A DNA stretch of 25,727 nucleotides from a virus: positions 1 through 25,727 of the IMG/VR virus record IMGVR_UViG_3300001848_000284. One strand, 5' to 3'. Position 1 is the first letter of the stretch. Each line of letters opens with the position of its first letter. Of the stretch, positions 16,924 to 24,526 are shown piece by piece. A model generated the notes under the pieces. The model had not been told where the DNA came from and did no database searches. It was given only the letters and a program-made list of their open reading frames with translations. A program made the translations under genes and the position numbers.

Positions 16924-17904
16924 ATGGCTCTGGTAAATCCATCCTCGACGCTTACGGAAATTGTTACTACGACGCTCCGTAACCGCACCGGCAAGCTTGC
17001 CGACAACGTAACCAAGAATACCGCGCTGCTCAATCGTTTGCGTAAGCGCGGCAAAGTCAAGACCGTTTCTGGCGGTCGTACCATCGTCCAAGAACTTGAA
17101 TACGCGGAAAACGGAACCTACAAGCGCTATTCTGGCTACGAAGCCCTGAACATCGCTCCGTCCGATGTATTCACGGGCGCGGAATACAACTACGCCCAGT
17201 CGGCGGTTGCGGTCTCGATTTCGGGCCTGGAAATGCTCCAGAACTCGGGCGAGAGTGCCATCATCGACCTGCTCGAAAGCCGCATCGGCAACGCAGAGCG
17301 GACGATGATTAACAACACCTCCGTCGATATCTACTCGGATGGCACGGCGGACGGCGGACGCCAGATCGGCGGGCTTCAGCTTTTGGTCCCGTCCACCAAC
17401 ACCAACACGGTGGGCGGCATCAACGCCAGCACGTATTCCTTCTGGCGTAATGTCGCGTTCTCTGCCGCTACCACGGGCGGCTCGGCTGCATCGGCTGCGA
17501 ATATTCAGAGCTACATGAACCGCGTTTGGGTTCAGCTTGTTCGCGGTGCGGATGCCCCGGACCTTATCGTTGCGGACAACAATTACTGGCGCTTTTATCT
17601 GGAAAGCCTGCAGGCAATCCAGCGCCTTGTCAGTGACTCCGAAGCGCAAGCGGGCTTTTCGTCTCTGAAATACATGACAGCAGACGTGGTGCTCGATGGC
17701 GGCTTCGGCGGTGCGGCTCCGTCCAACACCATGTACTTCCTCAACACCAACTATCTGTTTTTCCGCCCCCATGCGGATCGCAACTTCTCCCCGTTGGGCG
17801 ATGAGCGCTTCGCGGTCAATCAGGACGCGATGGTCAAATTGATCGGCTTTGCCGGGAACATGACGACATCGAATCGCAGCCTGCAAGGCTACCTCGGCGC
17901 GTAA
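16924..17904 (+). CDS. Major capsid protein (HK97-fold, 326 aa)
   Basis: The 326-residue product follows the scaffold and has the composition and pattern of a phage coat protein. An N-arm-like start MALVNPSSTLTEIVTTTLRN is followed by a helix-rich first part (GKLADNVTKNTALLNRLRKR), SGGRTIVQELEYAENGTYKR, a long spine-helix region LEMLQNSGESAIIDLLESRI, and a C-terminal P-domain-like segment DNNYWRFYLESLQAIQRL. AGGAGG 8 bases before the ATG is the strongest ribosome site in this part, as expected for the most abundant virion protein. Hundreds of copies would form the icosahedral head. The HK97 fold is inferred from family position and pattern. Confidence 0.88.
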   Translation: MALVNPSSTLTEIVTTTLRNRTGKLADNVTKNTALLNRLRKRGKVKTVSGGRTIVQELEYAENGTYKRYSGYEALNIAPSDVFTGAEYNYAQSAVAVSISGLEMLQNSGESAIIDLLESRIGNAERTMINNTSVDIYSDGTADGGRQIGGLQLLVPSTNTNTVGGINASTYSFWRNVAFSAATTGGSAASAANIQSYMNRVWVQLVRGADAPDLIVADNNYWRFYLESLQAIQRLVSDSEAQAGFSSLKYMTADVVLDGGFGGAAPSNTMYFLNTNYLFFRPHADRNFSPLGDERFAVNQDAMVKLIGFAGNMTTSNRSLQGYLGA

Positions 17905-17929: not shown

Positions 17930-18526
17930 ATGACTTACGTCATCACTCAGGGCCGTGCCATCGGCATCCCGGACCTCTTCGCGGTTTACACCACGTTGGG
18001 CACCCCGGGCAATTCCAACCTCCCCAGCGTTCCGACCGAGGCGCAGCTTGGCGAGATCGTTACCGCATACGATGTTGCATCGAATGCGGCGGCGACTGGC
18101 GCGGGCGGTTATGGCGAGTTCATCTTGCTCGCTGTTCCGACCTCGACCAGCGTCACGGCTGGCCTGTATTACAGCTTCACGCCATCGGACTACAAAATCG
18201 CGGCGCTACCGACTTCAGCGGGCACCACGACCACGAGCGGTATTCCGATTGCGCTGGCTGTTAACTCGGTTACCTCAAACGCCTCCAGCGTTCAGTACAC
18301 TTGGTTCCAGGTGGGTGGACGCGGCACGGCGCTGAAAACCGCTGTTGCGGCTGCTCCTAACGTGCCTGTGTATCTCAGCGGCACGGCTGGGCGCGTCCAG
18401 TTCACCGGCTCGGCGTTCAAAGGGTTCGTTGGTGTCCGCACCGCGAACGCCACGACCGTTGCATCCGGCACTTCGACGGTTGCCGTGTACATGAATGGCC
18501 GCCCCTGCATCACGGTGGCCATCTAA
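17930..18526 (+). CDS. Structural (decoration/head-surface) protein, 198 aa
   Basis: The protein is Ala/Thr/Ser/Gly-rich and reads as beta-sheet throughout (TYVITQGRAIGIPDLFAVYT, AALPTSAGTTTTSGIPIALA, SSVQYTWFQVGGRGTALKTA). Such proteins next to the coat gene usually bind the outside of the head as decoration. AAGGAG precedes the ATG at the right distance. Its stop overlaps the start of the 672-aa glycosyltransferase-methyltransferase fusion as TAATG, so it might be the substrate of that enzyme. No cysteine-based or membrane features are seen. Confidence 0.7.
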   Translation: MTYVITQGRAIGIPDLFAVYTTLGTPGNSNLPSVPTEAQLGEIVTAYDVASNAAATGAGGYGEFILLAVPTSTSVTAGLYYSFTPSDYKIAALPTSAGTTTTSGIPIALAVNSVTSNASSVQYTWFQVGGRGTALKTAVAAAPNVPVYLSGTAGRVQFTGSAFKGFVGVRTANATTVASGTSTVAVYMNGRPCITVAI

Positions 18527-20544
18527 TGCTTCATATCGTCTGTCTGAAAGCTGGCACAAAGTACGGCCCGGAATACGTAAACATCCTTTACGACATGGTG
18601 TCCCGAAACTTGCCCGAGGGGTTCGACGGCGATTTTACGTGCTTTACTGACGACATCAGCGGCCTTTCCCCCTCTATTGCAACGAGGCCGTTACCTCATC
18701 CTGGCTTGAATGGTTGGTGGAATAAGATTGCCCTGTTCAAGCCGGGGCTTTTCCCCGATGGCGACCAAGTTCTGTATTTCGATTTGGATACCGTTATTAC
18801 GGGGCCGCTCGATGAGATCGCGTCTTATCGCGGCGACTTTGCCATCCTCCGCGACTTTTACCGGCCTGACGGGCTGCAATCGTCCGTCATGTCGTGGCGC
18901 GTCTCAGTGCCTGAAATTGTTTGGGATGCATGGTCGGCGGCAGATTGCCCGCAAGACTTCCCGGAAGGTGACCAGTTCGTCATTGAGCAGGTCATGTGCG
19001 AATGCGTTGACATCTGGCAAGACCTCTATCCCGGCCAATTTGCCTCCTATAAAGTCCATGCAAGCCTCGGCATTCCCAAAGGCGCAAACGTTGTCGTTTT
19101 CCACGGTGAGCCCCGTCCGCATGAGTGCGGCGACTGGGTGCCGTATGTGTGGAAGGTCGGCGGCGGTGTAAGCGCAAGCCTTGTCTTTAATCCCAACGTT
19201 CCGCTTGCGACCATCAAGGCCAACATCGCGTCCACGAAAGCGCGCGGCGCGGAATGGTTGAAAGCCTCAGAGCCGCACGAGGGCGAAGCGCTCATTGTTG
19301 CGGGCGGGCCTTCCATGAAGGTGGACTTGCCGTCGATTGCGGCACGTGCCCGTGGCGGTGCGGCGGTATTCGGCATCAATAACGCGGCAAAGTTCCTGCT
19401 TACCCATGGCCTCTGCGTTAACGCTCAAGTTATCTCTGATGCGCGCCCGGAAAATTGTGATTTTGTTCTGCCCGGCATCGTGCTCGCGGATTGCTTCTTT
19501 GCCTCCCAGTGCGATCCATCCGTCCTCGACGCGGCTGCAGATCGGTTGACGTGCTTTCAGCTTCTCACGCCGGAAATGGAGCCGAATGAAAAGGACATGA
19601 TTTACATCGGCGGCGGCACCACGGCAGGGCTGCACGCCATCGTTATTGCTTACGTCCTCGGATATCGCAAGATTCACCTATACGGCTTCGACAGTTGCTA
19701 TGAGGGCGATGAGAACCACGCCTACAAGCAACCGCTTAACGATGGCGAGCGCATTATCGAGACAATTGTTGGCGGGCAGACGTTCCGTTGCGCTCCGTGG
19801 ATGATTGCCCAGGCCGACGACTTCAAGGGCCTAATTCCTCAGCTTGTCGGTATGGGATGCGAAATACACGTTCATGGCACGGGGCTTATCCCCCATATCG
19901 CTAAACTCATGGTTCCGGGTGCAATTGACGGCGAGTTAAAGCTTATCGATGGCATATGGTGGCCTAATAAGGACCAATACGCAGCCCCAGCGCTGAACCG
20001 TGAAAAGAATGATATCCCCCGCATCCTCCACTATGTCCCGAAGCGTGACGTGGTGGTGCAGGCGGGCGGCAATGTCGGCATCTGGCCGCATGAGTTCGCT
20101 GGCCACTTCCGCAAGGTCTTCACGTTTGAGCCCGATCCTCTGAATTTCGAATGTCTTAAACGCAACACCGAGAACGATCTAAACATTGAGCGCTTCAACA
20201 TGGCGCTCGGCTTTGAGCCCGAGACAATCGACTTGCAGCGTGATGCTGAGAATTGTGGTGCGCATTATGCCAAGCCCGGAACGTCAATCGACGTGGTCAG
20301 CATTGACGACATGCAGCTTACAGACTGCGATCTGATCCAGCTTGATATTGAGGGCTACGAACTCAAGGCCCTAAAGGGTGCTCGCGAAACTATCGCGAAA
20401 AACAAGCCCGTTATCGTGACCGAGGAAAAGGGCCTTTCGCGCCGCTACGGCAGCGAGGACGCCGACATTTTGGAATTTCTTGCCTCATATGGATACCGCG
20501 TAGCGGAACGCATCAATAACGATGTGATCTACGTCGCGGCTTAA
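18526..20544 (+). CDS. Fusion of glycosyltransferase, MptE-like (DUF115) and FkbM methyltransferase domains
   Basis: The 672-residue protein has three parts. Residues 1-215 look like a GT-A glycosyltransferase: YFDLDTVITG holds the metal-binding DLD at 86-88 and HGEPRP is at 193-198. Residues about 250-465 match the MptE-like/DUF115 fold: VAGGPSM (258-264), IGGGTTAGLHA (361-371) and LYGFDSC (385-391). Residues about 500-672 form an FkbM-type AdoMet methyltransferase: VVQAGGNVG (510-518), FEPDP (534-538), LDIEGYE (606-612). It would add a sugar and methylate it. It sits in TAATG overlap with a decoration-like gene, inside the virion operon, so modification of virion proteins is the likely role; the substrate is inferred. 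No signal or membrane segment is visible. Confidence 0.86.
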   Translation: MLHIVCLKAGTKYGPEYVNILYDMVSRNLPEGFDGDFTCFTDDISGLSPSIATRPLPHPGLNGWWNKIALFKPGLFPDGDQVLYFDLDTVITGPLDEIASYRGDFAILRDFYRPDGLQSSVMSWRVSVPEIVWDAWSAADCPQDFPEGDQFVIEQVMCECVDIWQDLYPGQFASYKVHASLGIPKGANVVVFHGEPRPHECGDWVPYVWKVGGGVSASLVFNPNVPLATIKANIASTKARGAEWLKASEPHEGEALIVAGGPSMKVDLPSIAARARGGAAVFGINNAAKFLLTHGLCVNAQVISDARPENCDFVLPGIVLADCFFASQCDPSVLDAAADRLTCFQLLTPEMEPNEKDMIYIGGGTTAGLHAIVIAYVLGYRKIHLYGFDSCYEGDENHAYKQPLNDGERIIETIVGGQTFRCAPWMIAQADDFKGLIPQLVGMGCEIHVHGTGLIPHIAKLMVPGAIDGELKLIDGIWWPNKDQYAAPALNREKNDIPRILHYVPKRDVVVQAGGNVGIWPHEFAGHFRKVFTFEPDPLNFECLKRNTENDLNIERFNMALGFEPETIDLQRDAENCGAHYAKPGTSIDVVSIDDMQLTDCDLIQLDIEGYELKALKGARETIAKNKPVIVTEEKGLSRRYGSEDADILEFLASYGYRVAERINNDVIYVAA

Positions 20545-20560: not shown

Positions 20561-21145
20561 GTGGACTTGGTTTCGCCGACAATTACGCAACGTGGGAATA
20601 ACTACGATGTGTCTCACGGATCGGATGCAAGCTTGATTGTTGAGTTCGTCATGGAGCCCGTTTTCATGGAGGCGAAAAGCACCGGAGCGGGCCGCAAGAT
20701 TTATGAAGATCGTCCGTACATTCACATCCGCTTTCCCGGCGACAAGACCCGCGAAATTTTTCGCCCCATTCAGGAAGATGACAAAGACCGATTTCATCGC
20801 CAATGGGCCGCATTCGAGCGTCAGAACGTCCAATCCCATACCGGCACACCGATTGAGCAATATCCCCCACTTTCCAAGGCCCAGGTTTTGGAACTCAAAG
20901 CGATCAACGTTCACACCGTGGAGCAGTTGGCCAATATCCCGGATTCGGCAGGTCACACGGTTGGTATGGGTTTCCGCGAGTTACGTTCAACGGCCCAAAA
21001 ATGGCTTGAGAACGCGAACGGCGGCGCGGCAGTCACGTCGATGCAGGCTGAGATTGAACGCCTCAAGGCGGACCTTGAAGCGCAAAAGGCGCTTTTTATC
21101 GAACACTCTCAGAAGCGCTCCAAGCGCAAAGAAGAAGGAGAATAA
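20561..21145 (+). CDS. Hypothetical structural-region protein, 194 aa, with HhH and coiled coil
   Basis: A GTG with AGGAGAGG 7 bases upstream opens 194 codons. The N-terminal 110 residues are beta/alpha mixed (SLIVEFVMEPVFMEA, then YIHIRFPGDKTREIFRPIQE and FHRQWAAFERQN). The middle (LSKAQVLELKAINVHTVEQL, then ANIPDSAGH) resembles a helix-hairpin-helix, and the end (MQAEIERLKADLEAQKALFI) is a coiled coil with a basic tail. Proteins of this plan occur in podovirus head regions. A role in binding DNA inside the head or assisting assembly is possible; nothing proves it. Confidence 0.66.
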   Translation: MDLVSPTITQRGNNYDVSHGSDASLIVEFVMEPVFMEAKSTGAGRKIYEDRPYIHIRFPGDKTREIFRPIQEDDKDRFHRQWAAFERQNVQSHTGTPIEQYPPLSKAQVLELKAINVHTVEQLANIPDSAGHTVGMGFRELRSTAQKWLENANGGAAVTSMQAEIERLKADLEAQKALFIEHSQKRSKRKEEGE

Positions 21146-21148
21146 GCC

Positions 21149-21520
21149 ATGATTAAAGCGAAAATGATGGGCGTGGGAACGCCGCCGATGATGGCGCAGG
21201 TAACTGTCGGAACTGTCACGAACACCCTTACCGCTAGCGGCTCCACGCAGGGTACGGCGCTGGCTATTAGCGACGATGTCAACATTTTCACGACCGTTGC
21301 GGCTTCAACCGGCACAATCCTGCCGGGCTCCACGCTTGTTTCGGCTGGCGATAATATATTGGTTGTAAACTATGGCGCGAACGCGCTGACGGTCTATCCG
21401 CCCACAGGTGGCAAGATCAACAATGGCTCGGCCAATGCGGGCGTTTCCGTCGCGGCCAATAAGAACGCCGAATTTGTCTGTATCAATGGCACCGACTACA
21501 TCGGCCTGCTGAGCGCGTAA
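21149..21520 (+). CDS. Small beta-rich virion protein, 123 aa
   Basis: The protein begins MIKAKMMGVGTPPMMAQVTV and is otherwise a Thr/Ala/Gly/Asn-rich beta domain (GDNILVVNYGANALTVYPPT, then GGKINNGSANAGVSVAANKN and NGTDYIGLLSA). The last pattern is typical of small head-surface or fibre-base domains in many phages. AAGGAG lies about 10 bases before the ATG. It overlaps the next gene as TAATG. It probably decorates the head; this is inferred from position. Confidence 0.68.
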   Translation: MIKAKMMGVGTPPMMAQVTVGTVTNTLTASGSTQGTALAISDDVNIFTTVAASTGTILPGSTLVSAGDNILVVNYGANALTVYPPTGGKINNGSANAGVSVAANKNAEFVCINGTDYIGLLSA

Positions 21521-22449
21521 TGGCTAAATCCCTCCTGACCTTGCTCGGTAATGTTGCGGACGAACTTGGCATTCCGACGCCAACGTTTATCTTCGGCAAT
21601 ACTGACAATCAGGTAAAGCAATTGCTTGCCCTCTCTAACCGGGAGGGCAAGGAATTTGCTGCGATGGGCACGCCGTGGGGCGGGTGGCCTCAGATGCGAG
21701 GCGAGCAGATTATTTCGCTTGTCTCGGTCGGGAGCTACACGGGCAACACCACGTCCGGCTCTACGACCATTAGCGGCCTCTCCAGCGTATCGGGGGTTCA
21801 GGTCGGATACGGTGTGACTATGAACGGCGTTCCCAACGCTTCGGTGGTGACATCGGTCGGCGTCAATAGCGTGGTTATCAATCAGCCCGCTACCGTCACG
21901 GCCACCGGAACCTCTGTTAGCTTCGGGAAGGTCGCTTATGACTTCCCCTCGGATTGGCAGTTTTTCCTCTCTCAGACCCAGTGGGATCGTAACTTCCGCT
22001 GGCAGCTTTTAGGCCCTCTCGATGCTCAGGAATGGCAGGTCTTAAAGTCGGGCATTTCTCCGACAGGCCCGCGCCGCCGCTTCCGTATTATGGGCGGTAA
22101 ATTCTATATTGATCCCGTCCCGAGCGCGCAGGAGAACGGTTACACGCTCGTCACCGAGTATATTACAAACACCTGGTGTACATCTTCGGGCGGCACGCTT
22201 CAGACCGAATGGGCGGCAGATACTGACACGTACCTTCTGGACGAGGATAGCTTTATTCTCGGTGTCAAATGGCGCTGGAAAGCCGCTAAGGGGCTCCCCT
22301 ACGCCGAAGAGCGCGCCGCCTACGAAGCGCAGGCCATGCGTGCCGGAAGCCGTGCCGGAGGCGCTAGGGCGCTCCCGTTGAATGCTTCGGCATCGGGGCT
22401 GCGTCTACTCAATAACCAGAATGTTCCGGATTCGGGCTTTGGAAGCTAG
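21520..22449 (+). CDS. Head-to-tail adaptor (P22 gp4-like position) with inserted beta domain
   Basis: The 309-residue protein begins MAKSLLTLLGNVADELGIPT, continues LLALSNREGKEFAAMG and later VAYDFPSDWQFFLSQTQWDR, with FRIMGGKFYIDPVPSAQENG and a helical end YAEERAAYEAQAMRAGSRAG. This helical-beta pattern with a WQ/YDFPSDW core fits podovirus proteins that bind beneath the portal and connect the tail. Residues about 71-136 (SGSTTISGLSSVSG, then NGVPNASVVTSVGV) form a Ser/Thr/Val/Gly-rich beta module, absent from minimal adaptors, inserted between two parts of the adaptor. Overlap TAATG with the preceding gene. Confidence 0.72.
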   Translation: MAKSLLTLLGNVADELGIPTPTFIFGNTDNQVKQLLALSNREGKEFAAMGTPWGGWPQMRGEQIISLVSVGSYTGNTTSGSTTISGLSSVSGVQVGYGVTMNGVPNASVVTSVGVNSVVINQPATVTATGTSVSFGKVAYDFPSDWQFFLSQTQWDRNFRWQLLGPLDAQEWQVLKSGISPTGPRRRFRIMGGKFYIDPVPSAQENGYTLVTEYITNTWCTSSGGTLQTEWAADTDTYLLDEDSFILGVKWRWKAAKGLPYAEERAAYEAQAMRAGSRAGGARALPLNASASGLRLLNNQNVPDSGFGS

Positions 22450-22453
22450 ATCG

Positions 22454-22537
22454 ATGACTTACGCTGAAAGCGCAAAGGCTCGGTTGCTGACCAAGATTGA
22501 AAAGATGCCAAGCGGTTGCTGGCGCGCTCATGGCTAA
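22454..22537 (+). pseudogene. Remnant of an HNH homing endonuclease (27 codons)
   Basis: An ATG 5 bases past the adaptor stop opens 27 codons: MTYAESAKARLLTKIEKMPS then GCWRAHG and a TAA. LLTKIEKMPSGCW followed by G is how many phage HNH endonucleases of the type seen at 1731-2204 begin (there GDCWIWIG). The body of the enzyme is missing. It overlaps the start of the tail hub gene by 8 bases. A GGAAG lies upstream. It may persist as a coupling leader for the next gene, which lacks a ribosome site of its own. Confidence 0.55.
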
Positions 22538-24110
22538 GGTCTCCGCTTTCGCTCGCCAACGCAGTGGCACGCCGCTGGACAAGCAGCGGGGAGGCTTGGG
22601 CAGGGTAACGTCCATTCCGGCTCCGGTCGGCGGCCTGAATGCGCGCGACTCCATTGCGAACATGCCGCCCACAGACGCCATTCTCATGGAGAACTGGTTT
22701 CCGTATCCGTCCTATATCCAGGTGCGGAACGGGATGACCGCTTACGTGACAGGCTTCAGCTCTTGGGTTGAAAGCCTGATGATCTACAGCGGGGCATCTT
22801 CTCGCAAGATGTTCGCGGCCTCCGGGACTGCTTTCTATAACGCTACGACCGCAGGCGCGGTTGGTGCTGCGGTGCAAAGCGGACTTACAAACGCTCGATG
22901 GGAAAGCGTCAATTTTGGCACGTCTGCCGGGCAGTATATGTACGCTTGCAATGCTGTAGATAAGCCGCGGCTTTATGACGGGACGAACTGGGTTGCGGTG
23001 GATGGCGTTTCGGTGCCTGCGATTACAGGCGTTACGACCACAACGCTCCGCAGCCCGGCAGTATGGAAAAGCCGCATTTGGTTCGTTCAAGACGGGACCA
23101 TGAAGGCTTGGTATCTGCCTACGTCCAGCATCGGCGGTGCGGCGCAATCTATCGACTTCGGCGCCGAGTTTAAGTTGGGCGGCTATCTGCAATCCATTAT
23201 CACGATGAGCATCGATAATGCTTCCTCGCTTGATGACTATATCGGGTTTTTGTCTAGCGAGGGCGAGTTGCTTGTCTATCGCGGGACTGACCCGGCTGTT
23301 GCGGGTGTGTTCGGGATTGTTGGCCGGTATCGGCTCGGACGACCCATCGGACGACGCTGTTTCTTCCGCTACGGGGCCGACACTATCATCATTTGCGCGG
23401 ACGGGTTTACGCCGTTCTCTTCGCTGTTAATGAGCAACCGCGACAACCTTTCTAAGCAGCTTTCCTACAAAATCCTAAACCTCGTTAATTCAGACGTTCA
23501 GAGCTATTCGGCAAATTTCGGTTGGCAAGGCATCCTCTACCCAATCGGGAACAAAATCATTATCAACGTCCCGCAGGTGGAGAATAATACCCAATATCAG
23601 TATGTGATGAACACCATCACAGGCGCTTGGTGCAAGTTTACTGGCTGGAATGCCTGCTGTTTCTCAGAGATGGGAGACAATCTATTCTTCGGTGGATCGA
23701 CGGCTGTTTACCAGTGCGATACCGGCGATGACGACAATGGCTCATACATCAACAGCAACGTGGCCCCGGCCTATTCGTATTTCGGCACGCGCGGCACGAA
23801 GCTGTGGACGATGATCCGCCCGGTTTTCCAAACCAGTAGAACGCTTGCTGCGCGGATCTCGGCCAATACAGACTTTGCCACCCCTGCGTTGGGTTTAAGC
23901 GACATTACCTCAACGGGTGAAGGCTCGACGTGGGACTTGGCCCCATGGGACACAAGCCCGTGGGCGGTGTCGGATCAGGTGCAACGCCTTTGGCAGTCTT
24001 TTCCATGCACTGGCTTTGCGGTCACGCCGACAATCTCGATGAGCACTAAGTCCATCACGGCGAAGCTGCATTCGATTGACTACGTTTACGAGCCGGGCGG
24101 GATACTCTGA
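22530..24110 (+). CDS. Tail hub / packaged-DNA stabilisation protein (P22 gp10-like), 526 aa
   Basis: The protein has a repeating beta pattern expected of a propeller-like tail hub: GGLNARDSIANMPPTDAILM, WFPYPSYIQVRNGMTAYVTG, then KPRLYDGTNWVAVDGVSVPA, SSLDDYIGFLSSEGELLVYR and SYINSNVAPAYSYFGTRGTK. P22 gp10 and related podovirus proteins have this size and lie after the adaptor gene. It would close the portal vertex and anchor tail spikes. The frame is open to 22497, but the ATG at 22530 fits the protein start MAKVSAFARQ. No ribosome site is seen, so it is probably coupled to the small HNH remnant. Confidence 0.74.
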   Translation: MAKVSAFARQRSGTPLDKQRGGLGRVTSIPAPVGGLNARDSIANMPPTDAILMENWFPYPSYIQVRNGMTAYVTGFSSWVESLMIYSGASSRKMFAASGTAFYNATTAGAVGAAVQSGLTNARWESVNFGTSAGQYMYACNAVDKPRLYDGTNWVAVDGVSVPAITGVTTTTLRSPAVWKSRIWFVQDGTMKAWYLPTSSIGGAAQSIDFGAEFKLGGYLQSIITMSIDNASSLDDYIGFLSSEGELLVYRGTDPAVAGVFGIVGRYRLGRPIGRRCFFRYGADTIIICADGFTPFSSLLMSNRDNLSKQLSYKILNLVNSDVQSYSANFGWQGILYPIGNKIIINVPQVENNTQYQYVMNTITGAWCKFTGWNACCFSEMGDNLFFGGSTAVYQCDTGDDDNGSYINSNVAPAYSYFGTRGTKLWTMIRPVFQTSRTLAARISANTDFATPALGLSDITSTGEGSTWDLAPWDTSPWAVSDQVQRLWQSFPCTGFAVTPTISMSTKSITAKLHSIDYVYEPGGIL

Positions 24111-24112
24111 AA

Positions 24113-24526
24113 GTGAGGCGTCTCGTCTTTGACCGTCAACCAGAATTGGCGGCATGGATCGCAATTCGCATCGGAAGCCCGCTTGATGATTGCAAGTGCA
24201 TCGGCGTTGAGCGTGACGGGCGATTGATTGCAGGCGTTGGCTATTCCAATTGGACGCCTAGCGTCGACATCCGTATGCACGTTGCCGCCGAACATGGCGA
24301 GCCATGGCTTTCGCGAAAAGCGCTGCAAGCGTTTTTCTATTACCCATTCATTGAGTTGGGGGTTAGGCGTGTTTCAAGCCTGATACTCCCGAGCAATTCT
24401 CGCTCCATTCGGCTGTCTGAGCACTTGGGCTTTAAATCCGAAGGCCGCATTCGAGAAGCGTGGCACACCGGCGACGATCTTCTACTTTATGGACTCCTCA
24501 AGCGGGAATGTAGGTATCTGCCATGA
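24113..24526 (+). CDS. GNAT-family N-acetyltransferase (137 aa)
   Basis: The protein fits the GNAT fold. A first strand region (VERDGRLIAGVGYSNWTPSV) leads to the acetyl-CoA site around LSRKALQAFFYYPFIELG, then VRRVSSLILPSNSRSIRLSE, and GFKSEGRIREAWHTGDDLLL, the usual RimJ/RimL-type end. It would transfer acetyl from acetyl-CoA to an amine, often a protein N-terminus. It begins with GTG two bases after the tail hub stop and overlaps the next ATG. GNAT genes in podovirus tail regions are known but their targets are not; a virion protein or a host protein are both plausible. Confidence 0.85.
   Translation: MRRLVFDRQPELAAWIAIRIGSPLDDCKCIGVERDGRLIAGVGYSNWTPSVDIRMHVAAEHGEPWLSRKALQAFFYYPFIELGVRRVSSLILPSNSRSIRLSEHLGFKSEGRIREAWHTGDDLLLYGLLKRECRYLP

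Follow-up and report, generated by a model that had tools for sequence, protein, structure and literature searches.

Phage-encoded glycosylation of virion proteins is known from a few mycobacteriophages, in which both capsid and tail-tube proteins are modified; examples are Che8 gp110, Corndog gp38 and Myrna (PMC12363180, citing Freeman et al., 2023). A further point of comparison is provided by the Maf proteins, which in the cytoplasm attach directly to flagellin (PMC4065374) and O-glycosylate serine and threonine residues exposed at the surface (PMC11339370). Here we describe a viral gene that joins a Maf-like domain to a GT8-like glycosyltransferase and a methyltransferase, and that is co-inherited with a particular type of capsid decoration protein.

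The window, that is, the whole 25,727-nucleotide stretch of viral DNA analysed here (IMG/VR record IMGVR_UViG_3300001848_000284), comes from an Mx8-like podovirus as judged by its head protein, which is 51% identical to the major virion protein of Myxococcus phage Mx8 and 64% identical to Bradyrhizobium phage ppBjS10J-1. An earlier note on this DNA had described a three-enzyme fusion placed between coat and tail genes and translationally overlapped with a Ser/Thr-rich gene, and each of these features is borne out (Table 1). The fusion gene is preceded by the genes for the head and decoration proteins and followed by SU10-type adaptor and tail genes, and its start lies within the stop codon of the decoration gene, a one-base overlap; serine and threonine make up 23% of the decoration protein. 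The large tail-module protein is probably a tail nozzle, a role assigned from synteny. A GNAT acetyltransferase gene (phrog_4470; 24113-24526) also lies inside the tail operon, recurs at that location in numerous relatives as well as in the cultured phages BUCT555 and ppBjS10J-1, and could encode another virion-modifying enzyme.

Table 1. Features of the head and tail region of the window
Feature	Coordinates	Strand	Evidence or remark
Major head protein (Mx8-like)	16924..17904	+	phrog_9953, E 1.1e-125
Capsid decoration protein, proposed substrate	17930..18526	+	phrog_29386, E 1.2e-7; Mx8 AAK94384.1 profile match; Foldseek
Ser/Thr-rich segment TANATTVASGTSTV, decoration-protein residues 171-184, candidate modification site	18440..18481	+	
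TAATG, overlap of decoration-gene stop and enzyme start codons (coupling)	18524..18528	+	Sequence
GT8-Maf-FkbM fusion enzyme, 672 aa	18526..20544	+	Pfam/PHROGs; AF2 model
Domain 1, GT8-like glycosyltransferase, about residues 1-215	18526..19170	+	phrog_1962; profile matches; Foldseek
DLD of domain 1	18781-18789		Residues 86-88
Domain 2, Maf/MptE-like glycosyltransferase, about residues 230-470	19213..19935	+	PF01973; Maf 5mu5
Domain 3, FkbM-family SAM methyltransferase, about residues 500-672	20023..20541	+	PF05050; TIGR01444; Foldseek 2py6
orf7, virion-module gene downstream of enzyme, control tree	20561..21145	+	phrog_20268
orf8, small conserved gene	21149..21520	+	
SU10-type head-tail adaptor	21520..22449	+	PF24175; phrog_6013
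Large tail-module protein, 'amidase' in PHROGs	22497..24110	+	phrog_5107, E 6e-117

The fusion reading frame is intact and open throughout. It recurs with 100% identity in contigs of three metagenome assemblies (3300001851, 3300009218 and 3300009225), in one of them at identical coordinates (IMGVR_UViG_3300001851_000241, of whose 33,858 bases the window appears to form the first 25,727); contamination or an assembly artefact was set aside on this ground. Pfam, PHROGs and NCBIfam families fall on it in the order glycosyltransferase (phrog_1962, residues 6-210, E 1.8e-34), MptE-like (PF01973, residues 235-394, E 3.3e-13) and FkbM methyltransferase (PF05050, residues 530-659, E 2.1e-14, 54.4 bits against a cut-off of 22.7; fkbM_fam TIGR01444, E 3e-19, 69.9 bits against a cut-off of 37.7). 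All of the motifs named in the earlier note are present (DLD at residues 86-88, GGPSM, GGGTTAGLH, GGNVG and LDIEGYE), and motifs and catalytic residues are kept in relatives at about 42-52% identity, far beyond chance. The AF2 model of the fusion has a pLDDT of 91.2 and a pTM of 0.62, the latter value indicating that the arrangement of the domains is not reliable. A fold comparison with this model returned an FkbM protein (2py6) at rank 1 in Foldseek, with glycogenin and Maf 5mu5 also among the five best matches. Above-cut-off FkbM scores coupled with SAM motif I (GGNVG) place the third domain in the FkbM family.

Domain 1 has the GT-A fold, DxD site and downstream motifs of GT8 enzymes. When a profile of 24 relatives was compared with PDB sequences, this domain matched the Skp1 galactosyltransferase (1e-8) and glycogenin (2e-4), and a profile of the glycosyltransferase part only matched AgtA (E 2e-7) and glycogenin (E 2e-4), with the DxD, GGDQ and HG-P-P regions aligned and DLD 86-88 lying on the glycogenin DxD. 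The Foldseek match to glycogenin is at 1e-6. Residues D86, L87, D149 and H193 are invariant in the alignment of relatives (A5) and D88 is nearly so; the histidine sits two residues away from that of glycogenin in an alignment judged by eye, and the Pfam scan of the fusion protein gave no scoring match to GT8.

For the middle domain the best solved sequence relative is the Magnetospirillum Maf protein 5mu5 (E 4e-16 with the 24-relative profile), which is also a fold match (E 1.2e-6 in Foldseek), and PF01973, found in 24 of 24 relatives, indicates homology to the nucleotide-sugar domain of Maf. For the domain that the earlier note called MptE-like, sequence and modelled fold thus favour a Maf-type protein O-glycosyltransferase; the alternative of a pterin kinase (MptE, 6-hydroxymethylpterin diphosphokinase) was set aside. 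Family scans with Pfam and PHROGs brought up no pterin gene among the window genes scanned. Given its likeness to Maf, the fusion probably contains two sugar transferases.

More than 200 related virus loci were compared. In a search that started from the enzyme family, the best 80 of 436 candidate matches were examined. At all 80 the gene still has neighbours from the capsid or tail module, and the sequence of genes is head protein, decoration protein, enzyme, orf7, adaptor. Within these best 80 of 436 loci the head protein was found in 74, the decoration protein and orf7 in 76 each and the adaptor in 78, the gaps mostly reflecting nearby contig ends or relatives too distant for the search; the head proteins of this set are as little as 33-44% identical to that of the window. 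The enzyme is phage-encoded and linked to a structural gene, as is expected of a virion-glycosylation system. No record in the phages collection covers 80% of the query, so that no cultured phage with the fusion was found there. Among cellular genomes, a single-protein scan found nothing, and a scan with a subset alignment brought up the GT-Maf fusion in two MAG contigs of Gammaproteobacteria (L337 and L338), of which one also has the head gene and the other the decoration gene and orf7. A GT-Maf fusion that lacks a methyltransferase lies near RNase HII and protein kinase genes in an alphaproteobacterial MAG (L339, 2514-4247), apparently in a chromosomal, non-phage context, and is a counter-example to placement in the capsid module. 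Four loci (L260, L274, L295 and L309) carry an ORF between the head-protein and decoration genes that looks HNH-like by eye. IMG/VR entries resembling isolate-derived prophages (L026, L027, L030, L032, L049 and similar) have no enzyme and a decoration protein of the other class.

The fusion is modular. Among 72 distinct complete GT-Maf fusions the C-terminal domain is FkbM in 19 and of the Methyltransf_24 type in 42, and the remaining 11 have no recognised methyltransferase; two methyltransferase families are thus interchanged at one position, the third domain, which suggests that methylation of the product is itself selected. One locus (L091) has Maf with a Methyltransf_11/25-type methyltransferase and no glycosyltransferase, another (L061) has Maf alone, and in other podoviruses of the wider group (L200, L285) the slot is filled by separate Maf, methyltransferase and sometimes GT8-like genes. 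Since Maf is the constant element across relatives, we infer that it performs the first, protein-contacting step. The separate genes that follow the head protein in L200, L203, L212 and L285 include a Maf-like gene, a gene for a protein of 278-294 aa of unknown family, Methyltransf_11/23 and sometimes a GT8-like gene. At two loci (L161, 5004-7193; L171, 5001-7113) there are fusions of about 730 aa, or split versions, which seem to have a second Maf-like stretch between the glycosyltransferase and the conserved Maf domain. The same glycosyltransferase family also accompanies a different capsid lineage: at six loci in cellular genomes (L346, L351, L352, L359, L360 and L365), all probable prophages, a member follows an HK97-type capsid gene at a distance of up to about 3.5 kb; in Halomonas getboli (L351) an FkbM gene lies between the capsid gene and the glycosyltransferase, and L360 has an FkbM-profile match.

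The gene that overlaps the enzyme encodes a capsid decoration protein. Its family profile matches the Mx8 'major virion structural protein' AAK94384.1 (E 1.5e-25), and its model (AF2, pLDDT 86.7) has a decoration-like fold, the top PDB matches in Foldseek being capsid proteins of cyanophage Pam3, Sf11 and HFTV1 and the phi29 head-fibre base (best match E 1.3e-3, probability 1.00). The presence of the enzyme follows the class of this protein: the two agree in 67 of 67 loci gathered by head protein only in which both could be called, and in 243 of 262 loci over all sets, with class profiles that were trained on data overlapping these test loci. In the wider samples eight Maf-positive loci have another decoration type. 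At 11 loci without the enzyme the decoration protein is assigned by score to the enzyme class, but none of these 11 proteins has the Ser/Thr hairpin motif described below. Mapped onto a head-protein tree built from 103 loci, the enzyme label switches 12 times, with eight or more of the switches forced by supported branches, and between six and eight supported independent pairs agree with decoration class with none opposed (median p 0.016). For 101 loci, 12 changes of the enzyme label are needed on the head-protein tree, 11 on the orf7 tree and 12 on the adaptor tree, against two on the decoration-protein tree, which has some long branches. The enzyme thus tracks a single type of decoration protein through inheritance. 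Co-inheritance of adjacent, translationally coupled genes could come about through recombination as one cassette and not through the need of an enzyme for its substrate; linkage alone would, however, predict that orf7 agrees as well, and the failure of orf7 to follow the enzyme weakens this explanation.

A candidate site of modification can be named. Decoration proteins of the enzyme class have in common a compact turn, rich in serine and threonine, that precedes the last strand (consensus ANxxTVTSTTSTVxVxxNRP); the corresponding segment of the window, TANATTVASGTSTV, is flanked in the model by strands 165-171 and 183-195. The motif T[VITA][TAV][SAT][TAG][TSVQA][ST], a post hoc definition, is found in 90 of 129 enzyme-linked decoration proteins of the enzyme class, the other 39 departing from the regular-expression form, and in none of 78 others, eight of which are Maf-linked but of the other class. 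It is absent from every enzyme-less relative, and it separates enzyme-linked from enzyme-less decoration proteins better than Ser/Thr density does. Plain Ser/Thr density of the C-terminal segment was rejected as a marker, enzyme-less proteins having a longer loop with a similar count. Judged by sequence and model, the C-terminal hairpin is thus a candidate for the modified site.

Collectively, the sequence comparisons lead us to regard it as probable that the fusion is a dedicated, soluble, single-chain enzyme that O-glycosylates the decoration protein and adds methyl groups to the resulting glycan. The earlier note had looked to virion proteins as the target, including the products of 17930-18526 and 21149-21520; comparative genomics supports a virion target and makes the decoration protein the likely one, and nothing was found that points to orf8. 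Late in infection the fusion would be translated in a manner coupled to the decoration gene, and its Maf-like domain would bind the newly made decoration protein and add a sugar to serine or threonine, probably in the C-terminal hairpin. By analogy with Maf, this sugar may be a CMP-activated nonulosonic-type acid. The GT8-like domain would then add a hexose, with a UDP-sugar as donor, after which the methyltransferase domain would O-methylate the glycan and the decorated subunits would go on to cover the head. Such an enzyme would need nucleotide sugars and SAM from the host, and the description of it as a 'self-contained' tool has been dropped. The benefit may lie in an altered head surface, for example in shielding or adhesion; hiding the phage or tuning its attachment, the roles first put forward for the modification, are speculation. 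More tentatively, and in our view a little less probable than its converse, the GT8-like, Maf-like and exchangeable methyltransferase domains may form an 'assembly line' on one chain, widespread in environmental Mx8-like podoviruses, that places an O-methylated nonulosonate-type glycan on a dedicated decoration protein, enzyme and substrate travelling as one cassette.

The families involved also admit a target outside the virion. Host envelopes are the target of many phage glycosyltransferases, and envelope clusters often contain members of the GT8 and FkbM families. The fusion might on this account alter LPS, capsule or flagellin at the surface of the infected or lysogenic host, for instance to block superinfection, its place in the operon reflecting incidental late expression, and Maf itself is a flagellin glycosyltransferase (PMC4065374). 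The GT-Maf fusion outside any recognisable phage (L339) would fit such a role, which we nevertheless consider improbable: the best 80 of 436 loci all lie in the capsid/tail module, the enzyme tracks decoration type and not the lineage of coat, orf7 or adaptor, and no flippase-type partner was noticed among the family-annotated genes of the window.

It is also unlikely, if marginally less so, that the enzyme acts on another virion protein, such as the major head protein, orf8 or tail proteins, and owes its tie to decoration class to cassette linkage only. Adjacent genes recombine jointly, the TAATG overlap would favour joint transfer, and more than one kind of virion protein is glycosylated in the mycobacteriophages (PMC12363180, citing Freeman et al., 2023). 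Against this, orf7 is equally close and does not track the enzyme (11 changes against two), and head proteins about 85% identical to that of the window occur both with the enzyme (L017) and without it (L016 and L018). Very little weight is given to the remaining possibility, a modification centred on methylation or using another donor, in which the Maf/MptE-like domain is no sugar transferase and the product no methylated oligosaccharide. PF01973 is named for a pterin diphosphokinase and donor specificity is unreadable from sequence; yet Maf is the nearest solved protein by sequence and ranks among the five best fold matches, and the Maf-like domain is joined to a GT8-like domain with a conserved DxD. 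Glycosylation of the decoration protein remains the preferred reading. The comparisons suggest that a large group of environmental podoviruses has an enzyme dedicated to capsid glycosylation, and because gene genealogies allow its substrate to be named, the question is open to direct testing. The GT8-Maf-methyltransferase fusion might also serve as a tool for the O-glycosylation of display proteins.

Each part of the fusion has described counterparts. Its central domain is homologous to that of the Maf flagellin glycosyltransferases (5mu5, Aeromonas Maf1), and O-glycosylation of Ser/Thr on the subunit of a surface polymer is plausibly a job common to both. The fusion, however, has no flagellar context, matches only the central domain of Maf, is joined to GT8 and methyltransferase domains and adjoins a capsid gene. 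Domain 1 resembles the GT8 family, including glycogenin and the Skp1 galactosyltransferase AgtA, in profile, fold and aligned motifs, but with only 14-17% sequence identity in Foldseek. The FkbM methyltransferases, exemplified by 2py6, are matched by Pfam, NCBIfam and fold; here the domain is a C-terminal part of a fusion, and in relatives it is swapped for Methyltransf_24 or missing. A comparable gene block in Tetraselmis viridis virus S20, likewise placed between the head and the tail genes, comprises glycosyltransferases, a methyltransferase, FkbM and a weak match to the MptE-like family, but as separate genes, with GT-D and GT2 folds for the glycosyltransferases, and beside a head module annotated differently (portal, prohead protease). 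In the literature searched, which was mostly without subscription papers and in which absence is not proof, neither a GT8-Maf-methyltransferase fusion nor a link between such an enzyme and a decoration protein was found described. As described in PMC12363180, the mycobacteriophage systems are like the one proposed here in using phage-encoded glycosyltransferases for the phage's own capsid and tail proteins; that description sets them apart as glycosyltransferases of actinobacterial phages, whereas here GT8-like, Maf-like and methyltransferase domains lie on one chain, in Mx8-like podoviruses, and are tied to a decoration protein. Virion glycosylation is a known capability of a few mycobacteriophages, and it is the fused, substrate-linked version that appears to be new.
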